Shown here in pieces: positions 22,572-52,060 of a stretch of DNA of 64,000 nt. The notes beneath the pieces were generated by a model that had not been told where the DNA came from, made no database searches, and saw nothing but the letters and a program-made list of their open reading frames with translations. Numbering within the stretch: position 1 is the first letter of the stretch; each line of letters begins with the position of its first letter. The stretch comes from Bacteroidota bacterium (lineage in GTDB: Bacteria; Bacteroidota; Bacteroidia; B-17B0; Aurantibacillaceae), in contig JAUXTT010000008.1 in the NCBI GenBank assembly GCA_030684395.1, positions 124,001 to 188,000 of the forward strand, in the 5' to 3' direction. The translations under genes and the position numbers were made by a program.

Positions 22572-24248
22572 TTACACTATTTGATAAACAAAAATTTCAT
22601 TGTTTTCTGCCCCAAATTTATCAACTAACTTCAACCTTTCTGAATTAATCTTCACCCCGGAAAAAAAATATTTTGTATTCTTATTTATCATTTCATCAAA
22701 ATCCAACTCAAGGGAATCGATAACCTTTTTACCTTGCCTGTAATCTGCAGAAACTATTTCGCAATGGCTACCTATCGAGGGTATATTCAATTTTTGCATT
22801 TCCTTTCTGCAAATCAGGGTAAACCATTCGTTATATTCTTTTGGGTAATAATAGAAATAACCATCTATTGTATTATAGCCATTGAACTGAAGTATTTCAG
22901 CTTCTATTCCAAGCGATGCTACCCTATAAGTTCCGGGTGCCACTTTTTCCTTAATTGATTTAAAAATATCTTCCCGGTAGTATCCAGAAAAAGAAAGCGA
23001 TTCTTTTTCTGAATTAGTAAAGTATGTCTTTAAAAATGCATTTTCCACAAATTTACAATCCTGAAAGTCTTTCATTTTAAAGGAGGACATATTAATAAGT
23101 AACAAGACTGAGAAGATACCCATTAAAATTAATTTGCGGTTCCTTTGCGTATTTCTGAGAATTATAGCTGAACAATATCCAAGAAGACAAATCCACAAGA
23201 TTGGAAATACAGAATAAAATCTGGGAGTAATACCTTTCAAGAAAGCCATTTTACCTGCGACCTGTGCAAATACTCTCCATTCGGGCAATACAAGCATCAA
23301 CGAAATAATATAAGCCAGAAAAAGAGTAAGGAGAATGTATATCTTTTCTTTTTTGATTTTAGTTACAAAAAAAGCCCATGCGCTGACAAACAACACAATT
23401 GGGGCGTTAACAGAATAAAAATGGTATTGCCCCTTAAAAAGGTGCTTGAGTGAAATGCCTATAAGCCCAAAAAAATTAAGGTTGGCACTTTTATCCTTAA
23501 GGTCGCGATGAGTTTCGAAGTGCTCAATAAACTGCATTTCGAACAATTTATGTTCAGCAATTACCGACACTATGGCAAATAATAAAAATGCGGATAGCAA
23601 GCGTAGGTTCAACTTTTTTTTCAGAATAATAATTCCAAAGAAAATAAATCCCAAAATAATCATTAAAAAGAAGTTGGCAAATACCAATACCGAATACAAA
23701 GGGATTAATATAATTACGAACCAGTCTTTCCAATTGGATTCGTTATAATAAATGTTCAAAAATGCGTATAATAGGAGTGGTTGACCGGCGATGGCTAATC
23801 CACCGGAAGGCCAGAATGGCAACAGTGAAAATATTAACGACAAAAAGTATGAAAAGCCCGGATCCTGATCTTTAAAAAAATATTTTCTTGACAATAAAAA
23901 CATTCCATAAAATGCAACGAGGTGCATAATAACAATGTTTAAATTGTATGCTAATAGAGGAGAAAAGAGCAGGTAAAACAAATGTAAAAAATTAAATTCG
24001 GAAGGGTAACATCCTCTTGGCAATCCTGACAAGGTATTGGGAATAATCTCGTTATTAGACGCGAAAAATTTTCCTGATTCACCCAGGTTCTTATACCAAA
24101 CCACATTAGAGTTTAAATTATCATGTACCAGATAATTAGCCTGTTCAGGAATAAAAATGTTGGGCGATAAATAAATTAATAGTACCAGCAAGGCCAGTAA
24201 AAGAAATTTATTTTTATAAAAAAAGCTGCTAAGCTGCAATTTAATCAA
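22572..24248 (-). CDS. Polytopic GT-C-like membrane protein (possibly DUF6044/YkoS-like)
   Basis: This 558-residue protein has about ten to twelve membrane helices and a soluble C-terminal part from about residue 400. The first extracytoplasmic loop carries LVHDNLNSNVVWY, an acidic motif placed as in GT-C glycosyltransferases. The stretch FLHLFYLLFSPLLAYNLNIV resembles the YkoS/DUF6044 group as I remember it, but I cannot confirm this. It probably uses a polyprenyl-phosphate sugar, such as the product of the GT2 enzyme at 19196, to decorate the glycan. It has 1- and 3-base gaps to its neighbours. Confidence 0.7.
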   Translation of the reverse strand: MIKLQLSSFFYKNKFLLLALLVLLIYLSPNIFIPEQANYLVHDNLNSNVVWYKNLGESGKFFASNNEIIPNTLSGLPRGCYPSEFNFLHLFYLLFSPLLAYNLNIVIMHLVAFYGMFLLSRKYFFKDQDPGFSYFLSLIFSLLPFWPSGGLAIAGQPLLLYAFLNIYYNESNWKDWFVIILIPLYSVLVFANFFLMIILGFIFFGIIILKKKLNLRLLSAFLLFAIVSVIAEHKLFEMQFIEHFETHRDLKDKSANLNFFGLIGISLKHLFKGQYHFYSVNAPIVLFVSAWAFFVTKIKKEKIYILLTLFLAYIISLMLVLPEWRVFAQVAGKMAFLKGITPRFYSVFPILWICLLGYCSAIILRNTQRNRKLILMGIFSVLLLINMSSFKMKDFQDCKFVENAFLKTYFTNSEKESLSFSGYYREDIFKSIKEKVAPGTYRVASLGIEAEILQFNGYNTIDGYFYYYPKEYNEWFTLICRKEMQKLNIPSIGSHCEIVSADYRQGKKVIDSLELDFDEMINKNTKYFFSGVKINSERLKLVDKFGAENNEIFVYQIV

Positions 24249-39224: not shown

Positions 39225-40451
39225 TCAGTTTGATATCTCCTTATAGAAGCTGCGGTAGTTCTTTTCTGCATTAAAATTATCGTCCCAATAATTCCTAACC
39301 TTATTCCTAAATGATAGAGAATTTTTTGAAGATTCTTTGAATTTTAGAATTTCGTTCGCTACTTGTTCAGGGTCAAAATCTTTCTTTATAAGAATTCCTG
39401 TGTTATCGTTACATATTTCACCACAACCACCTACGTCAGTAGACATTAATGGAATTCCGAAACTAATAGCTTCGATCATGGTGTAGGGTAATCCTTCGTT
39501 AGAACTTAAGCTCAAAAAAAGTGAAACGCCATTGGTTCTTAAATAAGAAAGGAATTGTTCATTTTCAACATGCCCTACCAATTCAACTCTTTTCCCCAAT
39601 CCCTTTTTTTCAACCAGTTCCCTCAATAAATTCATTTCGGGTCCTGATCCGAAATGAATCCACTTGAATTTTTCAGGTAAATGAGAAAGAACTTCGGGAA
39701 AAGAAGTTGTCCGCTTTCTTTTTTGCACTGAACCGCATGACACTATAATAAATTGGTCCGTGGATTCATTAAACGGGTTAATATAATTGTGCGGAATGGT
39801 TCCTAAATAAGAACATTTAAATTTTTGAGAAAAAAAAGGATATAACTTAGTCAAATATTTTGCTCCATGTTTGGAGACGCTATAAACTTCAGACACATTC
39901 TCCAGTTGAAATTTTCTGTTCAAAATATACCCATCCCTGTTATCTTCTTCATAAAGGTCAAATGCATGTGCTCTTGTTATGAAATTAAGGTTTCTGATTT
40001 TTCTCTTAACTACGCCCAAAATTGTTGCCCAACGATCGAACCAAAAAGAATAAAACACGGTTTGTTGCTGAGGCTCATTTAAAATATACTCACTCAATAT
40101 CTGCGCTCTATATAATTGATGTAAATTATCATTGGCAACATCCTTAAATTTTCTTAAGGTTTGTTTTGGGTGCGAACGAAATTCGCCAATAATCAATTTC
40201 AAAAAAGCTGAGAAATTATTAAAGCAAACTTTTCTTCTATTAAATCCGGTATTTCCCTGCTCAAACAAATTAACCACCTTTACATTTGGCGGCAACTTTT
40301 TTGCATGCTCCTTTCCACAATCAATAGGAAAAATAACAACTTCATTAAAACATTCTGATAACACAACTATCTCTCTACCTACAAATATCTCACCTTCTCC
40401 ATAAGGGTAACTTTGAGTAAAAAGGAAACAATTCTTTTTTCTCTCAATCAT
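39225..40451 (-). CDS. Family 4 glycosyltransferase
   Basis: This 408-residue GT-B enzyme has NCFLFTQSYPYGEGEIFVGRE at the N-terminus, ITRAHAFDLYEE in the acceptor domain, IVSCGSVQKRKR and FGSGPEMNLLRELV in the donor domain, and the E-x7-E motif in SSNEGLPYTMIEAISFG, then STDVGGCGEI. The family call is firm; donor and linkage are unknown. It overlaps the upstream GT-C-like gene by eight bases. Confidence 0.92.
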   Translation of the reverse strand: MIERKKNCFLFTQSYPYGEGEIFVGREIVVLSECFNEVVIFPIDCGKEHAKKLPPNVKVVNLFEQGNTGFNRRKVCFNNFSAFLKLIIGEFRSHPKQTLRKFKDVANDNLHQLYRAQILSEYILNEPQQQTVFYSFWFDRWATILGVVKRKIRNLNFITRAHAFDLYEEDNRDGYILNRKFQLENVSEVYSVSKHGAKYLTKLYPFFSQKFKCSYLGTIPHNYINPFNESTDQFIIVSCGSVQKRKRTTSFPEVLSHLPEKFKWIHFGSGPEMNLLRELVEKKGLGKRVELVGHVENEQFLSYLRTNGVSLFLSLSSNEGLPYTMIEAISFGIPLMSTDVGGCGEICNDNTGILIKKDFDPEQVANEILKFKESSKNSLSFRNKVRNYWDDNFNAEKNYRSFYKEISN

Positions 40452-42009
40452 TAGCTACTCTGTAAACATGGATCTCTCCAAAAACGGTATCTGGAAAAAT
40501 AGTTTTATTCAACTCTCTTTTCATTTTATCGTAACTGTGCTGAATAATTTCATCTTTTCTGGATTTATTCTCTGAAAAATCAGATTCAAAATTAAATTTA
40601 TATGTCAACAGGTAGTTTGCATTTTGCTTTTGAATATTTCCGGGATTGATAAACGAATTCCACATGTAACTTTTATCGGGAATTGGATACGGATAACTTG
40701 CAGCAAAAGGATGATATCTTGACACAGCTAAAAAATCAGTAAATGGATATCTAACTGTTATATCCTGAAGGATACTGATTTTTCCTGGTTTTTGATTTAA
40801 ATAATCATAAACTTTCTGAGAATCCGATTTAATAGCCTTAGCCTGCTCTTCCAGTTTCACCAGCGGGTAAATTTTTATAATTGAAAACATAACAGAAACT
40901 GTCATCAGTAAACTTAACCCCGCATAAGCTGCCTTTTTTCCAATTGTATTCCTGAAATTTGACTCTGCAGAAGCCAGTAAACCCAACGCAAGAAAAACAA
41001 ACCCTGTCCATAAATAATGTGCCCACAACCTTTTTGTGAGTATCATTACCGGCAGCAGCAGACATAAACCAACTAAAGATAAAATCAACTCACTTGAAAT
41101 ACTCTTATTTTTAAAATACCTGATAACACCCTGTGTTATAAAAAATAAAAACGCTGCAAATACAATAACTCCTATAATTGTTCCACCTGTGTACCATTTA
41201 AACAATCCATCTTTTAACCAATCCATTATTGTAACCGTTGTATCATCGTAATGATCGGCATTTTTAAAAGTTGAGTCAATATATGTTTTCAGGAACTGTG
41301 GTTTAAACGGGCTAAGCAATAACCCAGGGATAGCAATTATAATTCCAGTACAAAATAAAATACCTGAGGAGATACATTTCTTAAAGTTAAACTGACCAAC
41401 AAATATAGGCAACAAAAAAAACAGTGGCAAAATCATTAATACATTAAATTTAACACCATACGCCATCCCTAACCAAATAAAATGCCTGCCAAAAGACCAA
41501 TTTCTTTTGTATGCATAATAAATAAAAACAGCAATCAGTAAAAGTTGAAACGGCTCGGGTTTTGGAACCATAACAAAATAGCTCGTATAATAAAGCGATA
41601 AAACACTCATGTAAAAAATCAACCTGCTTAGCATATTTTTCAAAAAAGTGCTTCCTAGTAAGGTAAGCCCGAAAAACAAACAAAGTACATGAAACATTCT
41701 GATGCTATAAACCAAACCGCTTATTCCCCCAATCTTATATGGCAGATAAGCAACAATGGCGTCGGTATAAAACATCATTCTGCCATAGAACATTACATCT
41801 CCGGCTGCAATTGACATTGCAAAATGCTTGAAACTCGCAGGCTCTAATATTGAATAAACTTCCCGAACTGTAAGGTATTCATCATGCCCCGAAAAAGTAT
41901 AATTGATATTGGATCCATCAAGAAATTGTGTATTGAGTATTCCTGCATACACCATGAATACAACAAACATTATACTTTCGAGAATATTTCTCTTAAAAAA
42001 GTCAATCAC
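40444..42009 (-). CDS. GT-C-like polytopic membrane protein
   Basis: This 521-residue protein has about ten membrane helices. Its first extracytoplasmic loop contains YTFSGHDEYLTVREVYSIL, with the Asp-Glu pair typical of GT-C glycosyltransferases. A soluble tail from about residue 400 contains FAASYPYPIPDKSYMWN. It probably transfers a sugar from a polyprenyl-phosphate donor outside the inner membrane; the substrate is unknown. Overlaps of eight bases on both sides tie it tightly into the operon. Confidence 0.78.
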   Translation of the reverse strand: MIDFFKRNILESIMFVVFMVYAGILNTQFLDGSNINYTFSGHDEYLTVREVYSILEPASFKHFAMSIAAGDVMFYGRMMFYTDAIVAYLPYKIGGISGLVYSIRMFHVLCLFFGLTLLGSTFLKNMLSRLIFYMSVLSLYYTSYFVMVPKPEPFQLLLIAVFIYYAYKRNWSFGRHFIWLGMAYGVKFNVLMILPLFFLLPIFVGQFNFKKCISSGILFCTGIIIAIPGLLLSPFKPQFLKTYIDSTFKNADHYDDTTVTIMDWLKDGLFKWYTGGTIIGVIVFAAFLFFITQGVIRYFKNKSISSELILSLVGLCLLLPVMILTKRLWAHYLWTGFVFLALGLLASAESNFRNTIGKKAAYAGLSLLMTVSVMFSIIKIYPLVKLEEQAKAIKSDSQKVYDYLNQKPGKISILQDITVRYPFTDFLAVSRYHPFAASYPYPIPDKSYMWNSFINPGNIQKQNANYLLTYKFNFESDFSENKSRKDEIIQHSYDKMKRELNKTIFPDTVFGEIHVYRVAND

Positions 42010-42721
42010 TTTTTTTCAATTTTTTACGTAATTCGAAAATGTAGTTCAATGTCCGTTTTATTAGTTTCCATTTTACTTTACTACTGCTTCCACTTCCTCC
42101 TTTTGCTTCACCGGCAACTCTTTTTGCAAAATAAACCGGAAAGTCAATTATTTTTCCGTGCTTTTTGGCGCAATAAAGTAAATACAGGTCGAGTGAAAAA
42201 TCATGAGGAGCATCTTTATTATATGCTTCAAAAAACTCTCTACTAAACAATTTAGGTTGTGCATTAATCTCTGATAATCTTGCTCCCAAAGCCATTGAAG
42301 ATAAAAGCCCCATCCCATATGAAAAAAATGCTTCCATTGTTTTCCTGTTTTTCCTAAAGCCTTTAACCAAAAGCATTTTATTCTTACCCTGCTTATATAT
42401 TTCCAATGCTTTTAACACATCCAAAGGATCTGTTTGTTGGTCAGCATGAGTGTATGATAAAACTTCTCCATTCGCACTTTTCAAACCTTCAAGGATGCCA
42501 TAACCATATCCTTTGTTAACAGGAACATAGACTACTCTGAATTTATCATTTCGCTTCAGCAATTCCTTTTGGAATACAGCTGCAGAATTATCTGTAGAAC
42601 CATTATTCACTAAGATAATTTCAATATTAGAATTGGCTTCTGCAAGTTTATCCAAACGGGCAAATAAGGCAGTAAGATTATCCTGTTCATTATAGCATGG
42701 TAAAACAACAGAGACTAACAT
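42002..42721 (-). CDS. Family 2 glycosyltransferase
   Basis: This 239-residue GT-A enzyme starts VSVVLPCYNEQDNLTALF, has LVNNGSTDNSA (residues about 36-46) and a metal-binding SYTHADQQTDPLD stretch near 88 in place of the usual D-x-D. It lacks the C-terminal membrane helices of polyprenyl-phosphate glycosyltransferases but ends in a basic stretch that could bind the membrane (WKLIKRTLNYIFELRKKLKK). It resembles DPM1-like GT2 proteins. It is next to two nucleotidyltransferases that may make its donor. Confidence 0.9.
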   Translation of the reverse strand: MLVSVVLPCYNEQDNLTALFARLDKLAEANSNIEIILVNNGSTDNSAAVFQKELLKRNDKFRVVYVPVNKGYGYGILEGLKSANGEVLSYTHADQQTDPLDVLKALEIYKQGKNKMLLVKGFRKNRKTMEAFFSYGMGLLSSMALGARLSEINAQPKLFSREFFEAYNKDAPHDFSLDLYLLYCAKKHGKIIDFPVYFAKRVAGEAKGGSGSSSKVKWKLIKRTLNYIFELRKKLKKSD

Positions 42722-42727
42722 ACTAAA

Positions 42728-43492
42728 TCAGGACTTGTTTGTGATTGTATCAAAATATCCATTCCAATAATTAAATGTTTCATAATCGGTTGGCGTTCCC
42801 CAACAAACATAGTGGTCTATCTCAAAAACCTCTACTTTATATCCCAGCTCAACGAGATCAGTAATACATTCATCCACATAGAATTCATTATTAATTCTTC
42901 TGTTTTGAGCTATCATTCGTTCGGCAGCTTTAACAAAATAATCTGATTTTTTAAACCAAAAAGCACCTACTACCGCGTGATCATTTTGAGGAGTCTTACT
43001 TATTGGGACTTTAACACTCATTCCTTTAACTGTGTTATCGTCGTTTACCTTCACCCAACCATAGGCTTGGGGTTTTGCATCTACCGCAGGATTATTTCTA
43101 AATGTAAATACCAATGCGTCTGCATTTAGTTTCTGCTCATCAAATTTTTTATGATCATAGATCATTCCGTTATCACTTGCGCCAATAACCAATTCTTCAT
43201 TTGCATCGAAAAGGTGCTTTGCTTTTAAGCAGGTTACTGCCTGACCTTCTGTTAAATGATCTAGCACGATAATATCAGCCTGAGGATAATATTTTTTTAA
43301 ATGCTTATCAATTTCATATTCTGAGATCTGGAAATCGCGTACTATAAATGAATATTTTTGAGAGGCAGGTAATGCCTTTGCCGCACTCACCACCATTGGC
43401 TCCCCCAGAACCGGCAACAAAGGTTTTGGTGTTTTGTAGCCTGCCTCAGTAAATCGGCTACCTGCTCCTGCCATTGGAATCAAAGCTCTCAT
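42728..43492 (-). CDS. Sugar- or polyol-phosphate nucleotidyltransferase (first of two)
   Basis: This 254-residue protein starts with the NTP-transferase signature RALIPMAGAGSRFTEAGYKTPKPLLPVLGEPMV, where GSRF and the KPLL lysine bind the nucleotide and phosphate. Further marks are GASDNGMIYD near residue 107 (metal-binding Asp) and the end VFEIDHYVCWGTPTDYETF. It makes an NDP-activated compound from a phosphate and NTP. It shares layout and ending (WGTP-DL/YE) with the gene at 43489, with which it overlaps by four bases, so the two probably came from duplication and then diverged. Confidence 0.88.
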   Translation of the reverse strand: MRALIPMAGAGSRFTEAGYKTPKPLLPVLGEPMVVSAAKALPASQKYSFIVRDFQISEYEIDKHLKKYYPQADIIVLDHLTEGQAVTCLKAKHLFDANEELVIGASDNGMIYDHKKFDEQKLNADALVFTFRNNPAVDAKPQAYGWVKVNDDNTVKGMSVKVPISKTPQNDHAVVGAFWFKKSDYFVKAAERMIAQNRRINNEFYVDECITDLVELGYKVEVFEIDHYVCWGTPTDYETFNYWNGYFDTITNKS

Positions 43493-44274
43493 GATAAAAT
43501 CTCCTTTCCTTTATAATGACCTATTATTTCCATCCATGTTTCATACTCCTTCAAGTCTTTAGGAGTTCCCCACTGACAAAAATATTTCACATCGTCATAC
43601 ACCAATACATCCAGACCATCTCTTACCAAAAGATTATAAACCATACTGATATAGTATTCGCCATTCAGATCCTGCTTTTCATCCATCAGTTGCTGAAAGT
43701 ATTTTTTCACGTACTTTCCTTTTGAAAAATAGTAAGTACCTCCTGAATGGCTCGCTTTTGTTTTATCTGTTTCAAAAGAGTATTTCTCTTTTATCTCTAC
43801 TAAATTACTTTCCGAATTTTTCTTACAGCTTGCGTACAGGTTTTCCGGATGCATAAGGTGCGGATGAAACCCGGTGTAACAAGGAATTGCTCCATACGAT
43901 CCTTTTTCTTTAACTGTTTTTTGAAAGTGAGCAAAATCCCAAACCTGAAAAAAATCGCAATAGTTTGTAATCACTTCTTCTTCCTCTTTTATAAGATCAA
44001 AAATTTTGGCAACGGCATAAACCGGTCCTAATTTGTGGCCTTCGATAGAAACAATTTTTCCATCGGGCTTGATTCGGTTCAACTCACTTTTTAAAGGAGT
44101 CAATTTCAAATGCTCTTCCCTGCAAATAAAAATGAATTCGTGATCACCCGGAAAAAGCCCAACTACCCATTCAATAATTGGTTTTCCATGAACTTTTATC
44201 AAAGGCTTAATATCAGAATAACCTGCATCCTGAAACCTTTTACCTAAACCTGAAAGTGGAATTATAATTTGCAT
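43489..44274 (-). CDS. Sugar- or polyol-phosphate nucleotidyltransferase (second of two)
   Basis: This 261-residue protein has the same family start, QIIIPLSGLGKRFQDAGYSD, then KPLIKVHGKPIIEW, ITNYCDFFQVWDF near 105 and a FCQWGTPKDLKEYETW ending. The GKRF form instead of GSRF and the low identity outside motifs suggest a different substrate from its neighbour. It lies directly downstream of a class II aldolase and a kinase fusion, suggesting it activates their product. Confidence 0.88.
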   Translation of the reverse strand: MQIIIPLSGLGKRFQDAGYSDIKPLIKVHGKPIIEWVVGLFPGDHEFIFICREEHLKLTPLKSELNRIKPDGKIVSIEGHKLGPVYAVAKIFDLIKEEEEVITNYCDFFQVWDFAHFQKTVKEKGSYGAIPCYTGFHPHLMHPENLYASCKKNSESNLVEIKEKYSFETDKTKASHSGGTYYFSKGKYVKKYFQQLMDEKQDLNGEYYISMVYNLLVRDGLDVLVYDDVKYFCQWGTPKDLKEYETWMEIIGHYKGKEILS

Positions 44275-44292: not shown

Positions 44293-45348
44293 TCAGGAAT
44301 TTTTCATAATGTTTTTCCTGTGTTTCTCCATATCCATATTATTAATATAATCGATCTCTTTTCCTTTTATTAGTTTAATTTTATTAGCAGCTGTTCTCAA
44401 TGTATCGTACAAAAACAAATAAGCGGTCATTGTTTCGTGAATGGATTCCGCTTCACGTTCATTGCCTTTATATTTTAATGTATAGTCTGCTGAAATATTA
44501 ATTTTTTTTGATTCTTCTCCAGTTAAAGTTATGTTGCCTTTAAAAAAAACCGTTTGATCCGGAAACAAGACCTGATCAAAAAAATCTGCTGCAACCTTAT
44601 ACTTAGATAAAATTCTGCTGCAATAATCATTAACCGGAAAAAAGCTTTCTTCTTTTAGTTCAACCTGAGTTACCGGATATGCATCAATTTCAACTGAAAA
44701 TATTTTTGCAATACTTGAGTCCACCTCCGTCAACAGGTTTGTCACTTCTTCCATGTTATCTCCATGAGCAATGATCCCATGATTTTCAAGAAAGAAAATC
44801 TTTGGTTTAGGTGAGTTGTTTTTCTCAGCATAAATTAACTCTTGTGTGATCAAATAAGACAGGCCAAAACCGGGACTAACAAAAGGAATATGAACAATTG
44901 GCACTGCGAGTTTTTCCTGAACTTTATTTCTTAATTCGGTCCCCAACTCATTACAATTGACAAGGTTTGCCCAAACAGAATGAGTATGAATAACATATTT
45001 ATCAAGCACCGCATGGAACCCGGTTTCCATTGAAGGTTTTGGGAATTTAACTCCATTTGCATCACTTAAAATATTGTTAGTGATCAACTCCAATGATTCT
45101 TTTTCGCATTGCTCCTTTGAAATAATCTGAACATTTCTGAAATACTTTTCAATTACTCCGGAGCTCACTGCTGAATACCCTCCATTGTCATTCATCTCAT
45201 TAAATCTGAATCCTGAAGCTTTTATGTACATATTTCCGGCTTCGTCTTTAACAGATGTATTTCCACCCGGTCCCTGGATCAGATCTGCCCTTCCAACAAA
45301 GGGTTTTGTAAGTTTCAGTAATTCGTTAATTATGGTATGATCAGACAT
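44293..45348 (-). CDS. Class II aldolase/adducin family protein
   Basis: This 351-residue protein has the class II aldolase fold in its N-terminal ~230 residues: LIQGPGGNTSVKDE and MYIKASGFRF (phosphate-binding), VIHTHSVWANLVNC with the zinc His pair, and FLENHGIIAHGDN with the third His. Such enzymes cleave or form ketose phosphates, or act as epimerases or decarboxylases. It is longer than L-fuculose-phosphate aldolase (about 215) by a C-terminal domain of about 120 residues. The phosphate-kinase, aldolase, nucleotidyltransferase gene order suggests a phosphorylated polyol or sugar acid is made and NDP-activated. Confidence 0.87.
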   Translation of the reverse strand: MSDHTIINELLKLTKPFVGRADLIQGPGGNTSVKDEAGNMYIKASGFRFNEMNDNGGYSAVSSGVIEKYFRNVQIISKEQCEKESLELITNNILSDANGVKFPKPSMETGFHAVLDKYVIHTHSVWANLVNCNELGTELRNKVQEKLAVPIVHIPFVSPGFGLSYLITQELIYAEKNNSPKPKIFFLENHGIIAHGDNMEEVTNLLTEVDSSIAKIFSVEIDAYPVTQVELKEESFFPVNDYCSRILSKYKVAADFFDQVLFPDQTVFFKGNITLTGEESKKINISADYTLKYKGNEREAESIHETMTAYLFLYDTLRTAANKIKLIKGKEIDYINNMDMEKHRKNIMKNS

Positions 45349-45353
45349 GCTTA

Positions 45354-47447
45354 CTAATTAGATTTTATTCTGCTAAACACAATGTATATAGTAAACAACT
45401 GCAATAGACCTTCATAGTTATCTTTCCATTCTGCATTGTACACTCCAACTTCTTCCAATTCAGGAATTAACTGAGAGGCTAGCAATTCGAGGTATTCGCT
45501 GGTAATGTTACCTTTTATGGTAACCAATAATCTACTATCAGTATAATCAACATTCAGATTTATAGTTTCAACCCGTGACAGTTTCTCTAATAATGGTTCG
45601 ATGTTAACATTGTTGTAAAAGCTAAGTTTAAGACCTAATTCCGGTTCAACATCCAATTTTAAAGGGTCTAGTTGGTTCGAACTAAAAAAGCTTACGATTA
45701 TATCTGCATTATCTGATTGCGAACGAATATATTTCAACGAATCCTCCTCGCGTTTTTTTAGCTGTTCAAGAACCTGCTCCGGAGCATAACCTCTCTTTGC
45801 CACATCACGCTTAACTTTCCACCAAACCCTAAGGTTCTCTTCCGGTTCCATAAAAATTTTCAAGTCATAAACATCCGAATGATTTTTGAGATAAAATGAA
45901 TGCAACCCTTCAAATATGACCAGTTTATTCGACTTTATAAATTGTGGTAAAGTAAACTTCCCTGTATTATGATCATAAAAGCTTCTTTTAATTCCCCTAC
46001 CTGTTTTTAAACTCCTCGCCTGATCAATATCCTCATGTAACTTATTTGCTCTTGGATCTAAATGTGTGTAATTATTCCAGTTCTCATTACCACGTTCCCA
46101 TTTATGCATATCATCTCCGCGGATAACGCTTGTATTTTGTAATTCAAAAATGGAAGTAAGTGAATTACTTAACGTAGACTTACCTGCAGCCGAGTCTCCG
46201 CCAATACCTATTAAATATGATTGCGACAAAAACTTAGTTTGTATATTATTATGAATTCCCTTTTTGAAAACCAAGTATCCAAAAATAATAAGTGTGGTTT
46301 GCAATATGGTAAAGGTGATATCCAGAAATTTAGGGTTATCAAGAAATGACAATTGAATTCCTAAATTTATTTTACCGAAATTAAAAGAAGTCAAATAATC
46401 TGAATTAGGAACTAATCCGAAATAAACGAAATACAATAGTGATACAAGTATTAATAATTGCCTTTCTTCCCGATCTTGTTTAACTGCAAAATAGGTAAGA
46501 AAAGGAATGATCCAGTAGTACCAACCTTGCATAGGAGCAACCATTAATGTTAGAGCCAGAAATGTAAAAGCAAGAAAAAGTATCAATTGATCGCGGTTGA
46601 CAAATTTCATATTAACGTACCAAATCAATAACGAAAAGTACATTGCGGGAATAAAGTATATTTTAAGTGAGTCATTGAAACGATAGAATAAATCAAAAAC
46701 CTGTTGTTGCACAGGGTTGTTGTAGACCATTGATATAAATCCGGCAGATGAAAGATATGGAAGGTTTATCAAAAGAATTGTTCCGGCAAAACATACTACA
46801 GAAATCACACTTTCTTTTAAACTTACATTTTGGGTTCTTAACAAATAAATCACATAAAAAGGGAAAACCAAAATTATGTTGGTTTTGCATCCAATCGCAA
46901 ATGCTAAAAACAAAAACGAAAAAATCCACTTTTGTTTAAACAGAAAATATAATGACGCAAACAGCAACGCAATAGGAATAACATCCAATTGCCCATGGAA
47001 ATAGTTAATATAAATCAATACCGGTGAAAGCCAGTACCATATCAACACTTGTCTCATTTTTGTTTTTAACCACCTGATGAGCGCAAACAATATTGCAAGA
47101 TCGGCTATGAATAACGGAATACGGTAAACAAAGCTCTCAAATGCACTCAGAATACCATCACTCGTGCAAAATGGGGATAAAATAATCCTCGGTATACTAA
47201 ATATCCATAGCATTAATGGTGGATATGGGAATTCATTTCCCTTCCCATTATTTGCAAAATGCTCGTATGGATTTTGAAACCCGCTTGAAACAAAATAATC
47301 TGTAAACGGTGCGAATAAATCTCTTAAAAAGGTGGAGGCAAATAAAAACGATAAAATCAGTTTTATAAAAACTCCCAACCAAAATAACCTCGACTTCATT
47401 AAAGGTAATTTGCTTTTTCCGTACTTATCTTTTAAAATAAATTTCAC
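45354..47447 (-). CDS. Fusion of a GT-C-like membrane domain and a uridine kinase/PRK-like P-loop kinase
   Basis: This 697-residue protein joins two domains rarely seen together. Residues 1 to about 395 have about ten membrane helices and an early acidic loop (FTDYFVSSGFQNPYEHF), as in GT-C glycosyltransferases. From about residue 410 a P-loop kinase begins: GIGGDSAAGKSTL (Walker A, near 414), RGDDMHKW, HLDPRANKLHED, VIFEGLHSFY (Walker B side), then WKVKRDVAKRGYAPEQVL and REEDSLKYIRSQSDNADIIV. That order is characteristic of uridine kinase/phosphoribulokinase relatives. The last ~90 residues are soluble and unassigned. No stop or frameshift lies at the junction (about 46210-46260), so the fusion looks real. 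Substrate unknown. Confidence 0.85.
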   Translation of the reverse strand: MKFILKDKYGKSKLPLMKSRLFWLGVFIKLILSFLFASTFLRDLFAPFTDYFVSSGFQNPYEHFANNGKGNEFPYPPLMLWIFSIPRIILSPFCTSDGILSAFESFVYRIPLFIADLAILFALIRWLKTKMRQVLIWYWLSPVLIYINYFHGQLDVIPIALLFASLYFLFKQKWIFSFLFLAFAIGCKTNIILVFPFYVIYLLRTQNVSLKESVISVVCFAGTILLINLPYLSSAGFISMVYNNPVQQQVFDLFYRFNDSLKIYFIPAMYFSLLIWYVNMKFVNRDQLILFLAFTFLALTLMVAPMQGWYYWIIPFLTYFAVKQDREERQLLILVSLLYFVYFGLVPNSDYLTSFNFGKINLGIQLSFLDNPKFLDITFTILQTTLIIFGYLVFKKGIHNNIQTKFLSQSYLIGIGGDSAAGKSTLSNSLTSIFELQNTSVIRGDDMHKWERGNENWNNYTHLDPRANKLHEDIDQARSLKTGRGIKRSFYDHNTGKFTLPQFIKSNKLVIFEGLHSFYLKNHSDVYDLKIFMEPEENLRVWWKVKRDVAKRGYAPEQVLEQLKKREEDSLKYIRSQSDNADIIVSFFSSNQLDPLKLDVEPELGLKLSFYNNVNIEPLLEKLSRVETINLNVDYTDSRLLVTIKGNITSEYLELLASQLIPELEEVGVYNAEWKDNYEGLLQLFTIYIVFSRIKSN

Positions 47448-48118
47448 TGTTGAGTTTTATAAAATGTACTATTTGCCTTTATATGATATGTTTTAATTCC
47501 AAGCAATTTTGCGCCTTCAATATCCTTTTTCTCACTATCACCTATCATAATAACATCTGACGGATTCAACTTCAGTTTTTCCAATCCCATGTTAAAAATA
47601 TAAGATGCCGGTTTTTCAACTCCTGCCTCTTCCGAGGTAACTATAAAATCAATGTAATTTTCCAGTCCAAGGTGAAGCCATTTTTTTAATTGAATCTGCG
47701 TTGTTAAATCGGTAACGATGCAAGAAGGTATTCTTTTGCTCTTTAATAGTTTTAAAAAATCCTTTGCATCCGAATCTATTTTCATGACAGAAATAAATTC
47801 TGTCCAATAAAGATCCTCCATTTTAAGTACATAAGCTGCATCTGTATGGCCGAAAACCTGCTCGTATTGTTTTTGAAAATAAAGTAATCTCGAATGAGAA
47901 GCTCCTTGTCCGTGAAGATCATTGTGAACCTTACTTCGCGCCGCCTTCCATGTAAGATCAAAATCGACTTCAGAAATTGCGTAATTAGCCCCGGCAAAAA
48001 CTTTACATTTTTCATAAGCAAAGTTATGGCAGATGTCATATGGATACAAAGTATCATCAAGATCCAACAAAACACCTTTTATACCATTTAAATCTATTTC
48101 AGAAAATGTAGTCAGCAT
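47444..48118 (-). CDS. HAD-superfamily phosphatase (YjjG/pyrimidine 5'-nucleotidase-like)
   Basis: This 224-residue protein has HAD motif I LLDLDDTLYPYD (nucleophile D19, acid D21), motif II SCIVTDLTTQ, a conserved Lys in AGVEKPASYIF and motif IV MIGDSEKKDIEGA. The start at 48118 is chosen because an upstream ATG at 48157 would overlap the previous gene by 35 bases, whereas 48118 leaves a four-base gap. The TLYPYD form is typical of nucleotidase-like members. It overlaps the kinase fusion by four bases, so a paired kinase/phosphatase step on the same intermediate is possible. Confidence 0.9.
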   Translation of the reverse strand: MLTTFSEIDLNGIKGVLLDLDDTLYPYDICHNFAYEKCKVFAGANYAISEVDFDLTWKAARSKVHNDLHGQGASHSRLLYFQKQYEQVFGHTDAAYVLKMEDLYWTEFISVMKIDSDAKDFLKLLKSKRIPSCIVTDLTTQIQLKKWLHLGLENYIDFIVTSEEAGVEKPASYIFNMGLEKLKLNPSDVIMIGDSEKKDIEGAKLLGIKTYHIKANSTFYKTQQ

Positions 48119-48122
48119 TTGT

Positions 48123-48695
48123 TTACCAAAGATCGGGGCGTTTTGTGCATACGGCATCTACTTCCATCCCTTTTAGTTTTTGTTTAAATTCATCAATCCT
48201 GCTTAAATCATAACCCTGCAATTCGGGTGAAACAATACATAATTTAAAATGTTTTTTCAAAATAGTGTAATTCTCCCGGTTCAATGGCAGATCATTAAAA
48301 CAGTCAACCCAAACCCAGTTCACTTTTCCGGCAAACCCCAAAACAAAATCCAAAGGCTCATGCTCGGAGAAACGGATTGCAATATCCTTTACCCCTTTTT
48401 TCATGTACTTAATAAGAAAAGGTAAAGAAAGGTCGAGGAAAAAATATTTTTTCACCTGAAATTTATTCATTAGGTCGAGAATCCTTTCTTCCATTCCCTC
48501 TGCTTTGGTATTAAGAATAAGCAAACTGTGTTTATAGTGTTTTAACCATTCTTCAAAATCTTCACCCTCTTTAAATGCATCATGATGAATAATAATTTTA
48601 TCTCCATTCGGACGAAGATCCATTTCTACGCCATACTGAACGGGCGTATCATTTAACTGTTGAATGGTATTTATTCTATGTGCTATTTTTAACAT
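48123..48695 (-). CDS. Short GDPD-like phosphodiesterase
   Basis: This 190-residue protein resembles the glycerophosphodiester phosphodiesterase barrel: H6/R7 in KIAHRIN, E24 and D26 in GVEMDLRPNGD, and H37-H38-D39 in IIIHHDAF, the metal and catalytic set. It is shorter than normal GDPD (about 240) and lacks the typical N-terminal AHRG glycine. There is no signal peptide, so it acts in the cytoplasm. In this module it may hydrolyse a phosphodiester or act on a phosphorylated polyol; specific role unknown. Alternatively it is a PI-PLC-like relative. Confidence 0.78.
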   Translation of the reverse strand: MLKIAHRINTIQQLNDTPVQYGVEMDLRPNGDKIIIHHDAFKEGEDFEEWLKHYKHSLLILNTKAEGMEERILDLMNKFQVKKYFFLDLSLPFLIKYMKKGVKDIAIRFSEHEPLDFVLGFAGKVNWVWVDCFNDLPLNRENYTILKKHFKLCIVSPELQGYDLSRIDEFKQKLKGMEVDAVCTKRPDLW

Positions 48696-48706
48696 GACTA
48701 CGGAAT

Positions 48707-49462
48707 TTACAATTTCTCCAATAGTAATTCAAAAACGCCTTCTCTATCATAATAAGTATCTTTGAAAAAAGACTTTGGCTGCACTTTATCAGGAAATAAA
48801 TTGATCTTCCCTTCACCATTCACTTCCAGCAATTTGAATCCAGCTGCTTCTGCACGTGAAATAAGGTACGCTTTAGAAGTGCAGGTAAGTTTTCCAGGCT
48901 CAGTTTTACCGGTAGCCAAATAGTTAATAGTATTTTCAATTGTTTCTATAGCCATCTGTCGGGGAGAAAAATCGCTTGCAGGATTATGGTCTTCCAACAT
49001 ATTATAGATGTACCATCCAAGTCCGTTTGAATTCAAGTAGAACTTTCCTCCCTTTTTTAACACACGATGCATTTCTGTTAGTGTTTTATTAACGTCGGTA
49101 CAAAGTATAACGCTATAACAAAAAATTGCATCAAATGAATTATCATCAAATGTGGTTTTTTCTATGGAGCCATTTCTTAAATCAATATCGCTTAATTTTA
49201 GTTCATCAAACATTTTTTTCACAGTTTCAAACCTGTTTTGTGCAAACTCAATTCCAGAAACCTTTTTATTCAATTTTGAAAGAGGCAGCATCCACTGGCC
49301 AAAACCAAAACCGGCATCAAGTACGTGATTAAAGTTTTCGAAGCCAATTGCCTTTAATCTATCCAAATAAACTTCGTCTGAAGTTTGCCAAACCCGTCCA
49401 AAAAAACCTTTATCGTTGCCTTGCAACATATCAGCATATTTTTCTATTATCGCTTTATCCAT
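48707..49462 (-). CDS. Class I SAM-dependent methyltransferase (Methyltransf_11-like)
   Basis: This 251-residue protein has SAM motif I VLDAGFGFGQWMLPL near residue 47, motif II VSGIEFAQNRFETV and motif IV FDAIFCYSVILC followed by EMHRVLKKGGKFYLN, the classic UbiE-like pattern. It is the third methyltransferase of the operon. The target is unknown; a sugar hydroxyl or a terminal residue that stops chain growth are both plausible. Confidence 0.92.
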   Translation of the reverse strand: MDKAIIEKYADMLQGNDKGFFGRVWQTSDEVYLDRLKAIGFENFNHVLDAGFGFGQWMLPLSKLNKKVSGIEFAQNRFETVKKMFDELKLSDIDLRNGSIEKTTFDDNSFDAIFCYSVILCTDVNKTLTEMHRVLKKGGKFYLNSNGLGWYIYNMLEDHNPASDFSPRQMAIETIENTINYLATGKTEPGKLTCTSKAYLISRAEAAGFKLLEVNGEGKINLFPDKVQPKSFFKDTYYDREGVFELLLEKL

Positions 49463-51055: not shown

Positions 51056-52060
51056 CTAAAAATATTGAACAAGTTCAGATTCTTCATTCTTTATCATACA
51101 CTCGGCAACCTTTAATCCGGCAACCTGCAGGTTAATTATAGGTGTCAGACCAACGTATCCTAACGTTTGTGTCATAAATTTAGCAATACCTTTACGCATT
51201 GGATAAACATTGACTCCTTTATTACTTAACAATTCATTATCAATTTCTCCGTACAAGTGTACTACTCCAAATGCATCATTCAGTGAAACTAATTCATCCA
51301 AATCCATGAAACCATTGCTTCCAAAGTATGGTCTTGTTTCATCGTAGTCGCAAACAAAAATAAAATCACATTCTTTGAAACCGTTTAATAGGTCAGTATA
51401 ATTAGTTGTAGTTATAACCCTTTTTGCTCCTGCGCTACGAAATCCTTCACTAACAACATCTCCAAAATGATCGTCGGACCAAACAACAATATTATTCCCG
51501 AAAACTTCGTAACCGGCTTCATGAGCCAACTTAATTGCTAACTGCCCACATGCACCAAACACATTTATATCCGGGTGTTCTTCCCATGTACCGGCAACTT
51601 TGATCTTATTTTTTTGACAATAATCAATGTCTATATCTTCTTTACGAACTTCCCATTTTTCATACATCAAAGGAATAACAACATCCTTTTTTGCTTTTGC
51701 CAAAATTGACTCGTTCAAAGGACGTAAATTTCCTGAGTTTGTTATAATGTCTGCTTCAGCAATAAATTCATCAGGAACAACATTAATTGAGATTTCAATT
51801 TTATTTTCAACACCCAAAGCAGCGGCTATTCTTAAGCATTCTTTCTTAATATCTTCACCTTTACCATACCTAGAGTCCTTTGTTATAGCGCAAACTTTTT
51901 CAGCTCCTGCCAATGCTGCAATAATTGGGGTATAGATATAATAATTACTGCCAACTTCAGTAAGTACAATTTGTCCATCGAGATTCAAACTTAATGTATC
52001 AATTGCCTGATTAATTAATTTTATAGCTCTTTTGGTTTGGTAATCGAACATATTAGTCAA
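51056..52060 (-). CDS. Unknown protein with a Rossmann/NAD-binding-like fold
   Basis: This 334-residue protein is not one I can assign to a named family. It has alternating alpha/beta structure: residues 30-70 hold QIVLTEVGSNYYIYTPIIAAL followed by a long helix. A middle block, KVAGTWEEHPDINVFGACGQLAIKLAHEAGYEVFGN, and FIFVCDYDETRPYFG look like dinucleotide- or ligand-binding parts of dehydrogenase-like folds (compare S-adenosylhomocysteine hydrolase and alanine dehydrogenase). The Gly-rich loop is not canonical. Its start overlaps the upstream AsnB by eight bases, so it may supply or use the carboxyl or amide group acted on there. Function unknown. Confidence 0.7.
   Translation of the reverse strand: MTNMFDYQTKRAIKLINQAIDTLSLNLDGQIVLTEVGSNYYIYTPIIAALAGAEKVCAITKDSRYGKGEDIKKECLRIAAALGVENKIEISINVVPDEFIAEADIITNSGNLRPLNESILAKAKKDVVIPLMYEKWEVRKEDIDIDYCQKNKIKVAGTWEEHPDINVFGACGQLAIKLAHEAGYEVFGNNIVVWSDDHFGDVVSEGFRSAGAKRVITTTNYTDLLNGFKECDFIFVCDYDETRPYFGSNGFMDLDELVSLNDAFGVVHLYGEIDNELLSNKGVNVYPMRKGIAKFMTQTLGYVGLTPIINLQVAGLKVAECMIKNEESELVQYF

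Follow-up and report, generated by a model that had tools for sequence, protein, structure and literature searches.

What does a phosphoribulokinase-type kinase do when it is joined, in one polypeptide, to a membrane domain with a GT-C glycosyltransferase fold? The question is posed by a gene in a 64,000-nucleotide stretch of DNA from a Bacteroidota bacterium of the family Aurantibacillaceae (assembly GCA_030684395.1, contig JAUXTT010000008.1, positions 124,001 to 188,000 of the forward strand), referred to here as the window. The gene lies at exactly 45354-47447 on the minus strand and encodes 697 amino acids (aa) in a single uninterrupted frame with a GTG start, as an initial annotation made from the sequence alone had claimed. 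On balance, and with limited confidence, we favor the reading that its product is a membrane-tethered phosphoribulokinase (PRK) that opens a pentulose-derived sugar pathway for a surface glycan.

A conserved fusion of a membrane domain and a kinase

The roughly ten membrane helices of the initial annotation correspond to ten hydrophobic segments found by a hydropathy scan of the N-terminal half. In a Pfam scan of the whole protein, PF00485 (PRK) was the sole family above its cut-off (133.7 bits, cut-off 22). An AlphaFold model had a mean pLDDT of 89.5, and the proposed structure prediction of the junction showed this value falling to 61 across residues 401-410, the link from the last membrane helix to the kinase. 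Positive residues directly follow that helix (FKKGIH), which fits a kinase on the cytosolic side; the active site must face the cytosol because ATP is met there. The start of the gene shares 4 bases with the stop of the upstream HAD gene.

A search for the same fusion in other genomes was fruitful. Among 150 related genomes, 46 had a match, and both halves lay in an open frame only in the window's own genome and in G067, whose homologue is 79% identical over residues 4-697. Two further genomes of the same genus gave no match when searched, so the fusion is patchily distributed among close relatives. Of 113 plasmid records with a match, three covered at least 80% of the fusion. A scan of genome contigs, in a collection with a single genome for each species, returned at least 586 pattern matches and 168 confirmed relatives; the best 80 of the 168 were kept, giving 79 loci, and in 78 of these both halves were matched, each in one open frame of at least 626 aa. 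The exception (L099) starts at a contig edge. The carriers' titles name Bacteroidota, Pseudomonadota, Myxococcales, Bdellovibrionales, Lachnospiraceae, Paenibacillus, Obscuribacterales, candidate phyla and two archaea, some of the metagenome names possibly being wrong.

For alignment, the window protein and 44 of 88 open reading frames (ORFs) were hand-picked for diversity, with plasmid copies and most Lachnospiraceae omitted. In this set of 45, the distances between pairs of sequences in one half correlated with those in the other (r 0.907; 0 of 1000 permutations as high), and in a tree the window protein fell inside a Bacteroidota group of eight with 100/100 support. A check not selected on the fusion used the profile of a partner protein, the GDPD-like phosphodiesterase described below, against 395 genomes of the phylum: five matched at E 1e-15, the window's own included. 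The fusion was present, at 698-699 aa, in two other strong matches (L127, L128), while kinase and aldolase were not found in the 19.5 and 12.9 kb examined around two weak ones (L129 and L130; 91 and 87 bits).

These data bear on the trivial explanation that an error of assembly or sequencing removed a stop between two genes. Full-length homologues at 25 to 79% identity occur in independent assemblies and the halves co-vary, so that a lost stop or chimera is rejected and such an artefact carries a negligible probability; the membrane half and the kinase half form a true fusion. A lost stop and an N-terminal half outside GT-C had been named beforehand as outcomes that would undo the initial annotation. 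The fusion is instead conserved, and the N-terminal half is GT-C-like.

The C-terminal half is of the phosphoribulokinase type

Phosphoribulokinase is an enzyme of the Calvin cycle and also occurs in some methanogens. The kinase signatures described in the initial annotation are in place, with Walker A GDSAAGKST at residues 417-425 and the RD-x-x-x-RG series at R547-D548...R552-G553, followed by R566, D569, Q577 and D582. PF00485 matched 45/45 aligned homologues at E 0.01 or better, and 26 kinase columns were identical in all of them (D582 in 44). The best NCBIfam model was PRK07429 phosphoribulokinase (NF005655), at 203.3 bits below its cut-off of 236; the uridine kinase model TIGR00235 gave 74.8 bits, far under its equivalog cut-off of 220.3. 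With a profile of the 45 homologues, the bona fide PRKs 6kev/6hzk were matched at 8.1e-66 and the best uridine kinase at 8.7e-25. These scores rule out a uridine kinase, and of the earlier label, uridine-kinase/PRK-like, only the PRK part stands.

VIA alignment placed residues 407-696 on the cyanobacterial PRK 9qkp (Z 29.8, 2.7 Å over 284 residues), with the C-terminal PRK domain present. Eight residues, D445, H448, R452, K544, R547, D548, R552 and R566, are identical in 45/45 homologues and in both viral kinases described below. They match the spacing of D42, H45, R49, K165, R168, D169, R173 and R187 in the Rhodobacter sphaeroides enzyme, which we take to be the residues of PRK for catalysis and for binding ribulose 5-phosphate (Ru5P). 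Two tryptophans, W450 and W457, are invariant here and replaced by other residues in the compared PRK sequences. The C-terminal half is thus assigned, by sequence and model, to the phosphoribulokinase type as a complete kinase, with predicted Ru5P 1-kinase activity. A role in the Calvin cycle is rejected, as Rubisco had no match in the window's genome. The fusion is the sole PF00485 match in that genome, which is 98.9% complete; a uridine kinase of the PF00485 family was therefore not seen there.

The membrane half has a predicted GT-C fold

The two halves gave a PRK-type kinase and a GT-C fold, the latter by VIA alignment and weakly by sequence. VIA placed residues about 14-411 on the Candida glabrata GPI mannosyltransferase I (9wno; Z 28.7, 4.1 Å, 349 residues), ALG3 (9s6r; Z 26.7, 3.6 Å, 332 residues) and ALG6 (6snh; Z 25.5, 3.4 Å, 362 residues), with lower matches to PIG-U (Z 23.3), ArnT (19.4) and PimE (19.3). 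No named GT-C Pfam family matched the membrane half of the window protein; at E 0.01 or better, ALG3 matched 8 of the 45 homologues, GT87 six, and Alg6_Alg8 and PIG-U one each, and the family profile weakly matched GPI mannosyltransferase 1 (E 0.003). The structural alignments assign the membrane half to the GT-C fold, in a PIG-M/ALG3-like form.

In known GT-C enzymes an external acidic loop supplies the base. The early loop described as acidic in the initial annotation is so in the window protein, but its acids are not conserved among the 45 homologues: at columns 40-80, around the first external loop, D or E occurs in 22/45 at most per column, and at position 50, where by eye we presume the PIG-M acid to lie, in 10/45. 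Conservation is found elsewhere, with D155, K188, W312 and P315 identical in 45/45, D116 in 44/45, and the loop residues F73, P74, Y75 and M79 invariant. PIG-U is a GT-C-fold subunit that is not known to have transferase activity. Most likely, the membrane half anchors the first enzyme of a pathway; it might instead transfer a sugar through an unusual base.

A cassette of sugar-processing genes surrounds the fusion

The neighboring genes in the window are listed in Table 1. Family models from the window and plasmid copies were used to scan 82 loci (L031-L112), all found via the fusion, for six partner families. Nucleotidyltransferases were detected in 72 loci, the class II aldolase in 71, the HAD in 69, GT2 in 68, GDPD in 63 and GtrA in 22; all but GtrA were present together in 55 of the 82 loci, and in 41 of the 48 flanked by 6 kb or more on each side. 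The genes remain grouped although their order differs between loci and the nucleotidyltransferases may be joined or encoded apart. A rough hydropathy screen placed a further polytopic protein of 350-900 aa in the examined stretch of 41 of the 48 well-flanked loci, and homologues of the window's own membrane protein adjoin GT2 in L034, L035, L036, L045, L050 and L120.

Table 1. The fusion gene, its two halves and the surrounding cassette, in window coordinates
Feature	Position	Strand	Remarks
Membrane protein	40444..42009	-	probably an acting GT-C transferase; no Pfam match
GT2 glycosyltransferase	42002..42721	-	probably a polyprenyl-phosphate-sugar synthase; NCBIfam matches all below cut-off
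Nucleotidyltransferase NTP1	42728..43492	-	
Nucleotidyltransferase NTP2	43489..44274	-	
Class II aldolase	44293..45348	-	FucA-like, with zinc histidines and glutamate
Fusion protein	45354..47447	-	GT-C-fold membrane domain and phosphoribulokinase-type kinase; 697 aa
Kinase half	45354..46229	-	residues 407-697 and stop; complete PRK-type kinase including C-terminal domain
Membrane half	46248..47447	-	residues 1-400; GT-C fold; first external loop without conserved acid; D116, D155, K188 conserved
HAD phosphatase	47444..48157	-	best NCBIfam model ribulose-1,5-bisphosphate 5-phosphatase, 184 bits (cut-off 330)
GDPD-like phosphodiesterase	48123..48695	-	predicted TIM barrel; His/Arg/Glu/Asp/His/Lys set invariant in 35 aligned

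G067 has the same order as the window from the membrane protein to GDPD, at 57-84% identity. Nothing in the G067 stretch examined corresponds to the methyltransferase at 48707 or to the protein at 51056, and both were therefore excluded from the cassette. In Yersinia proxima (L110) an eight-gene island lies between a putative histidine-degradation operon, read by eye, and unrelated genes, and on an Escherichia coli IncR plasmid (L032:6022-14984) the cassette is flanked by IS26 copies, both as expected of a self-contained module. The E. coli cassette was found in 2 of 5,426 complete E. coli genomes, each time on a plasmid, and the Yersinia query gave the same two; with such a distribution a tie to the xylulose-containing serogroup O95 could not be made.

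Partner enzymes were compared in hand-picked alignments of the window protein with 31 of 70 HADs, 33 of 68 aldolases and 34 of 64 GDPD-like proteins. NF053830, a haloarchaeal ribulose-1,5-bisphosphate (RuBP) 5-phosphatase model, was the top model for the window HAD, below its equivalog cut-off, and matched 32/32 HADs at E 1e-10 or better (best E 3.7e-59). The aldolase profile matched an uncharacterised chain, 3m4r, at 1.3e-29 and then L-fuculose-1-phosphate aldolases at 1.3e-14; E108, H121, H123 and H190, presumably the catalytic glutamate and zinc-histidine set of class II aldolases, are invariant in all 34. For the GDPD-like protein there was no Pfam match at E 0.01, and its profile matched nothing among PDB sequences better than E 0.027. 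Its model is a TIM barrel (pLDDT 96.8) with GDPDs nearest (3ks6, Foldseek E 7.2e-7), and H6, R7, E24, D26, H38 and K64, which we take to be the catalytic set of GDPD, occur in 35/35; fold and residues together assign it to the GDPD superfamily.

The cassette is a widely shared gene set that probably builds an unusual five-carbon sugar for cell-surface decoration. The fusion and its conservation, both folds, the cassette and the conserved residues are read from sequence or predicted structure.

Variant arrangements were also noted. In L060:10532-12925 the HAD and the class II aldolase share one frame, whose upstream extension is probably non-coding. A Lachnospiraceae contig (L092:7562-12745) carries a second, inverted GDPD, aldolase, GT2 and HAD set adjoining the first. 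L129:9350-12541 and L130:9390-11396 carry diverged genes for GDPD, HAD and nucleotidyltransferase in a polysaccharide-type setting and may represent a sister pathway that draws on a different sugar.

Viral versions of the cassette

The fusion profile found four viral contigs, of which L113 and L114 carry the fusion and L115 and L116 a soluble kinase of 236-257 aa. L116:3600-9005 and L115:9213-14408 encode this soluble PRK-type kinase with both nucleotidyltransferases, GDPD and the aldolase, and L116 also the HAD; GT2, GtrA and the membrane half were not detected in the examined stretches of either. L116 further encodes a TET-associated glycosyltransferase (TAGT, PF20691; 41 bits, cut-off 27.5).

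A scan of viral contigs with the GDPD profile gave six loci, the new ones being L134 and L135, with identical ORF layout. L134:2103-9444 encodes a thymidylate-synthase-like protein, a xylose-isomerase-like barrel and two zinc dehydrogenases around a fused nucleotidyltransferase and GDPD, together with a ribulose-phosphate 3-epimerase (150 bits) and a TAGT (44 bits). From this gene content, the cluster is likely a DNA sugar-modification pathway. The part common to the viral versions is thus nucleotidyltransferases and GDPD, and the variable front end is both times pentulose-phosphate chemistry. Perhaps the sugar of the cassette also decorates phage DNA.

The full fusion, searched as a single sequence, had no match in the viral contigs or in 50,697 phage records. 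The L116 GDPD matched no phage record, the L116 kinase five distant ones, and the fused nucleotidyltransferase of E. coli 19, of which 18 were Synechococcus phages. In S-SM2 (L118:8001-11309), one of two phages examined, a fused nucleotidyltransferase about 40% identical to that of the cassette lies in the vicinity of a class II aldolase, PfkB and cytidylyltransferase-like fragments, an annotated transketolase and a dehydrogenase; GDPD and PRK had no match in this stretch.

A proposed pathway and its alternatives

In the pathway that we favor, the C-terminal kinase would phosphorylate C1 of a pentulose 5-phosphate in the cytosol, most likely converting D-ribulose 5-phosphate to RuBP. The HAD would then take off the C5 phosphate, leaving a pentulose 1-phosphate (ribulose-1-phosphate) whose free C5 hydroxyl would allow furanose ring closure. 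The class II aldolase might reset the stereochemistry at C3 and C4 or otherwise remodel the ketose 1-phosphate, and the two nucleotidyltransferases with the GDPD-like enzyme would yield a nucleotide-activated sugar. GT2 could load this sugar onto polyprenyl phosphate, from which a separate GT-C would move it to the surface glycan. The GT-C-fold half of the fusion would tether the kinase to the site of assembly at the membrane and probably bind lipid-linked material, without being a canonical transferase. Every substrate and product, the order of the steps and the tethering role are what we infer. In favor of the proposal stand the retained PRK residues, the RuBP phosphatase and FucA matches of HAD and aldolase, their shared frame in L060, the haloarchaeal use of such a pair on RuBP and ribulose-1-phosphate (PMC9700705), the co-occurrence of the partners, the viral gene sets, and a genome with neither a Rubisco match nor a further PF00485 match.

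A number of observations weigh against this proposal. The window protein has the PRK 'EGLH' glutamate (E513), yet the count among the homologues is just 17/45, and with kinase and HAD both short of their cut-offs (203 against 236 and 184 against 330 bits), neither is a certified member of its family. If the aldolase split ribulose-1-phosphate, as its haloarchaeal counterpart does, the pathway would lose its intermediate, and no aldolase was detected in L036/L037. At least one partner is missing from 7 of the 48 well-flanked loci (L036, L041, L042, L048, L094, L102 and L104), and the partner counts cover six chosen families, which differs from an unbiased survey of neighbors. The gene set of L129 and L130, in which kinase and aldolase were not found in the stretches examined, means that its parts may serve another pathway too. 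The conservation of D116, D155 and K188 would suit a membrane half with its own chemical function. Finally, a search of the window's genome for GtrA at E 0.001 gave no match, which excludes GtrA there as a candidate flippase and leaves the flipping of a lipid-linked product unexplained.

The conserved residues of the membrane half raise the possibility that it is itself an active transferase from a new GT-C subfamily, in which D155 or D116 would serve as the base for moving the polyprenyl-linked product; the fusion would then hold the first and a last step of one pathway. Its fold lies near PIG-M, ALG3, ALG6 and ArnT, and the invariant positions and loop residues would suit catalysis; set against this are the poorly conserved acids of the first external loop, the second polytopic protein available in most well-flanked loci, and PIG-U among the close matches. 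We regard an active transferase as possible but on the doubtful side. The initial annotation had gone further, suggesting that phosphorylation of a small molecule might be coupled to transfer of a lipid-linked sugar or polyol phosphate. One shared pathway is plausible, since the cassette includes GT2, usually a polytopic protein and sometimes GtrA, whereas catalytic coupling within one polypeptide is unsupported: the loop acid is unconserved, the kinase site cytosolic and the viral kinases free of a membrane domain. The kinase might also act on something other than Ru5P, be it another pentulose, a sugar, a nucleoside or a lipid-linked sugar, with the cassette still making an activated sugar. 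The PRK07429 score, the loss of the 'EGLH' glutamate in 28/45 homologues, the two invariant tryptophans, and closest solved relatives that include a 'cyanobacteria specific PRK' whose role a literature search did not reveal would all fit such a change. We nevertheless consider it unlikely, as the positions assigned to Ru5P binding and catalysis are all kept, RuBP and a ketose 1-phosphate are also indicated, independently, by the HAD and the aldolase, and a viral variant encodes a ribulose-phosphate 3-epimerase.

The end product, too, could differ from a pentulose-derived glycosyl donor. Candidates are an aldopentose, a polyol phosphate and a C2/C3 unit released by aldol cleavage (dihydroxyacetone phosphate (DHAP) plus glycolaldehyde). 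Zinc alcohol dehydrogenases, two of which are found in the viral L134 cluster, occur in cytidine diphosphate (CDP)-pentitol routes. The accessible text on a haloarchaeal operon (PMC9700705) describes a catabolic pair, an RuBP phosphatase of the HAD type and a FucA-type aldolase, that takes RuBP through ribulose-1-phosphate to DHAP and glycolaldehyde. DNA of phage RB69 carries arabinose, and its ORF53_52c, distantly similar to nucleotidyltransferases, is proposed in the portion available (PMC6024577) to help supply uridine diphosphate-arabinose. A purely catabolic outcome makes little sense for a cassette that, with its GT2 and membrane proteins, belongs to a glycan module or makes one up by itself, and a different product seems to us unlikely as well. 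Within the tethered-phosphoribulokinase pathway, a more speculative route to ketofuranose donors, which we think distinctly improbable, would walk a phosphate around the sugar. The kinase would put a phosphate on C1, the HAD would free C5, and one nucleotidyltransferase would activate the C1 phosphate; the GDPD-like enzyme would then use the neighboring anomeric hydroxyl to expel the nucleotide via a 1,2-cyclic phosphate and leave the phosphate on the anomeric C2. An anomeric nucleoside diphosphate-pentulofuranose would then come from the second nucleotidyltransferase. Such a walk would explain the pair of nucleotidyltransferases and the phosphodiesterase. If true, it would give a route to the rare xylulofuranose (or ribulofuranose) in bacterial glycans, and phages would mask their DNA with the same sugar.

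Relation to known systems

Compared with phosphoribulokinases (PF00485; 6kev, 6hzk, 9qko, 5b3f), the window kinase has the same whole 290-residue fold and catalytic residues. It differs in being joined to a membrane domain, in lying within a glycan cassette in a genome without a Rubisco match, in scoring under the PRK07429 cut-off and, across the fusion family, in the frequent loss of the EGLH glutamate. The membrane half shares its fold with PIG-M, ALG3, ALG6, PimE, ArnT and PIG-U over about 280-350 residues; unlike these, the fusion has no conserved acid in the first external loop and carries a C-terminal kinase. Three-component gtr modules consist of GtrA, GT2 and GT-C. The cassette likewise includes GT2 and a polytopic protein, with GtrA in 22/82 loci and none found in the window's genome, but it has its own sugar-making enzymes and the kinase fusion.

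The haloarchaeal RuBP pathway, as far as the accessible text goes (PMC9700705), likewise uses a HAD and a FucA-type aldolase on RuBP and ribulose-1-phosphate; it is catabolic and fed by a ribose-1,5-bisphosphate (R15P) isomerase, whereas the cassette has a PRK-type kinase, two nucleotidyltransferases, GDPD and GT2. Phage DNA sugar-modification clusters (TAGT, PF20691; RB69 arabinosylation, PMC6024577; Thanatos pentose, PMC12838424), in the parts of these reports available, share nucleotidyltransferases and sugar-phosphate enzymes with it, and a TAGT adjoins in L116 and L134; here GDPD occurs with a PRK-type kinase and aldolase, or with a ribulose-phosphate 3-epimerase.

Neither the fusion nor the cassette, its viral form included, was described in the full-text literature searched, preprints and most subscription papers being outside its scope. 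Both folds are known, and a new pathway behind the fusion and the cassette is possible. Bacteria of many phyla encode a PRK-type kinase and a membrane GT-C fold as one protein, within a glycan-type cassette. If the proposed pathway is true, the cassette makes xylulose activation directly testable and joins surface-glycan with phage-DNA sugar chemistry. Xylulose glycans are recorded, in the accessible text of PMC8707391, for E. coli O95, Y. enterocolitica O:10, Campylobacter jejuni RM1221, Eubacterium saburreum T15 and Devosia, and that text does not state how the sugar is activated; the available parts of the Y. enterocolitica O:10 paper make no mention of GtrA, an aldolase or a nucleotidyltransferase.

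Elsewhere in the window, 22572-24248 encodes a full-length DUF6044 protein (358 bits).

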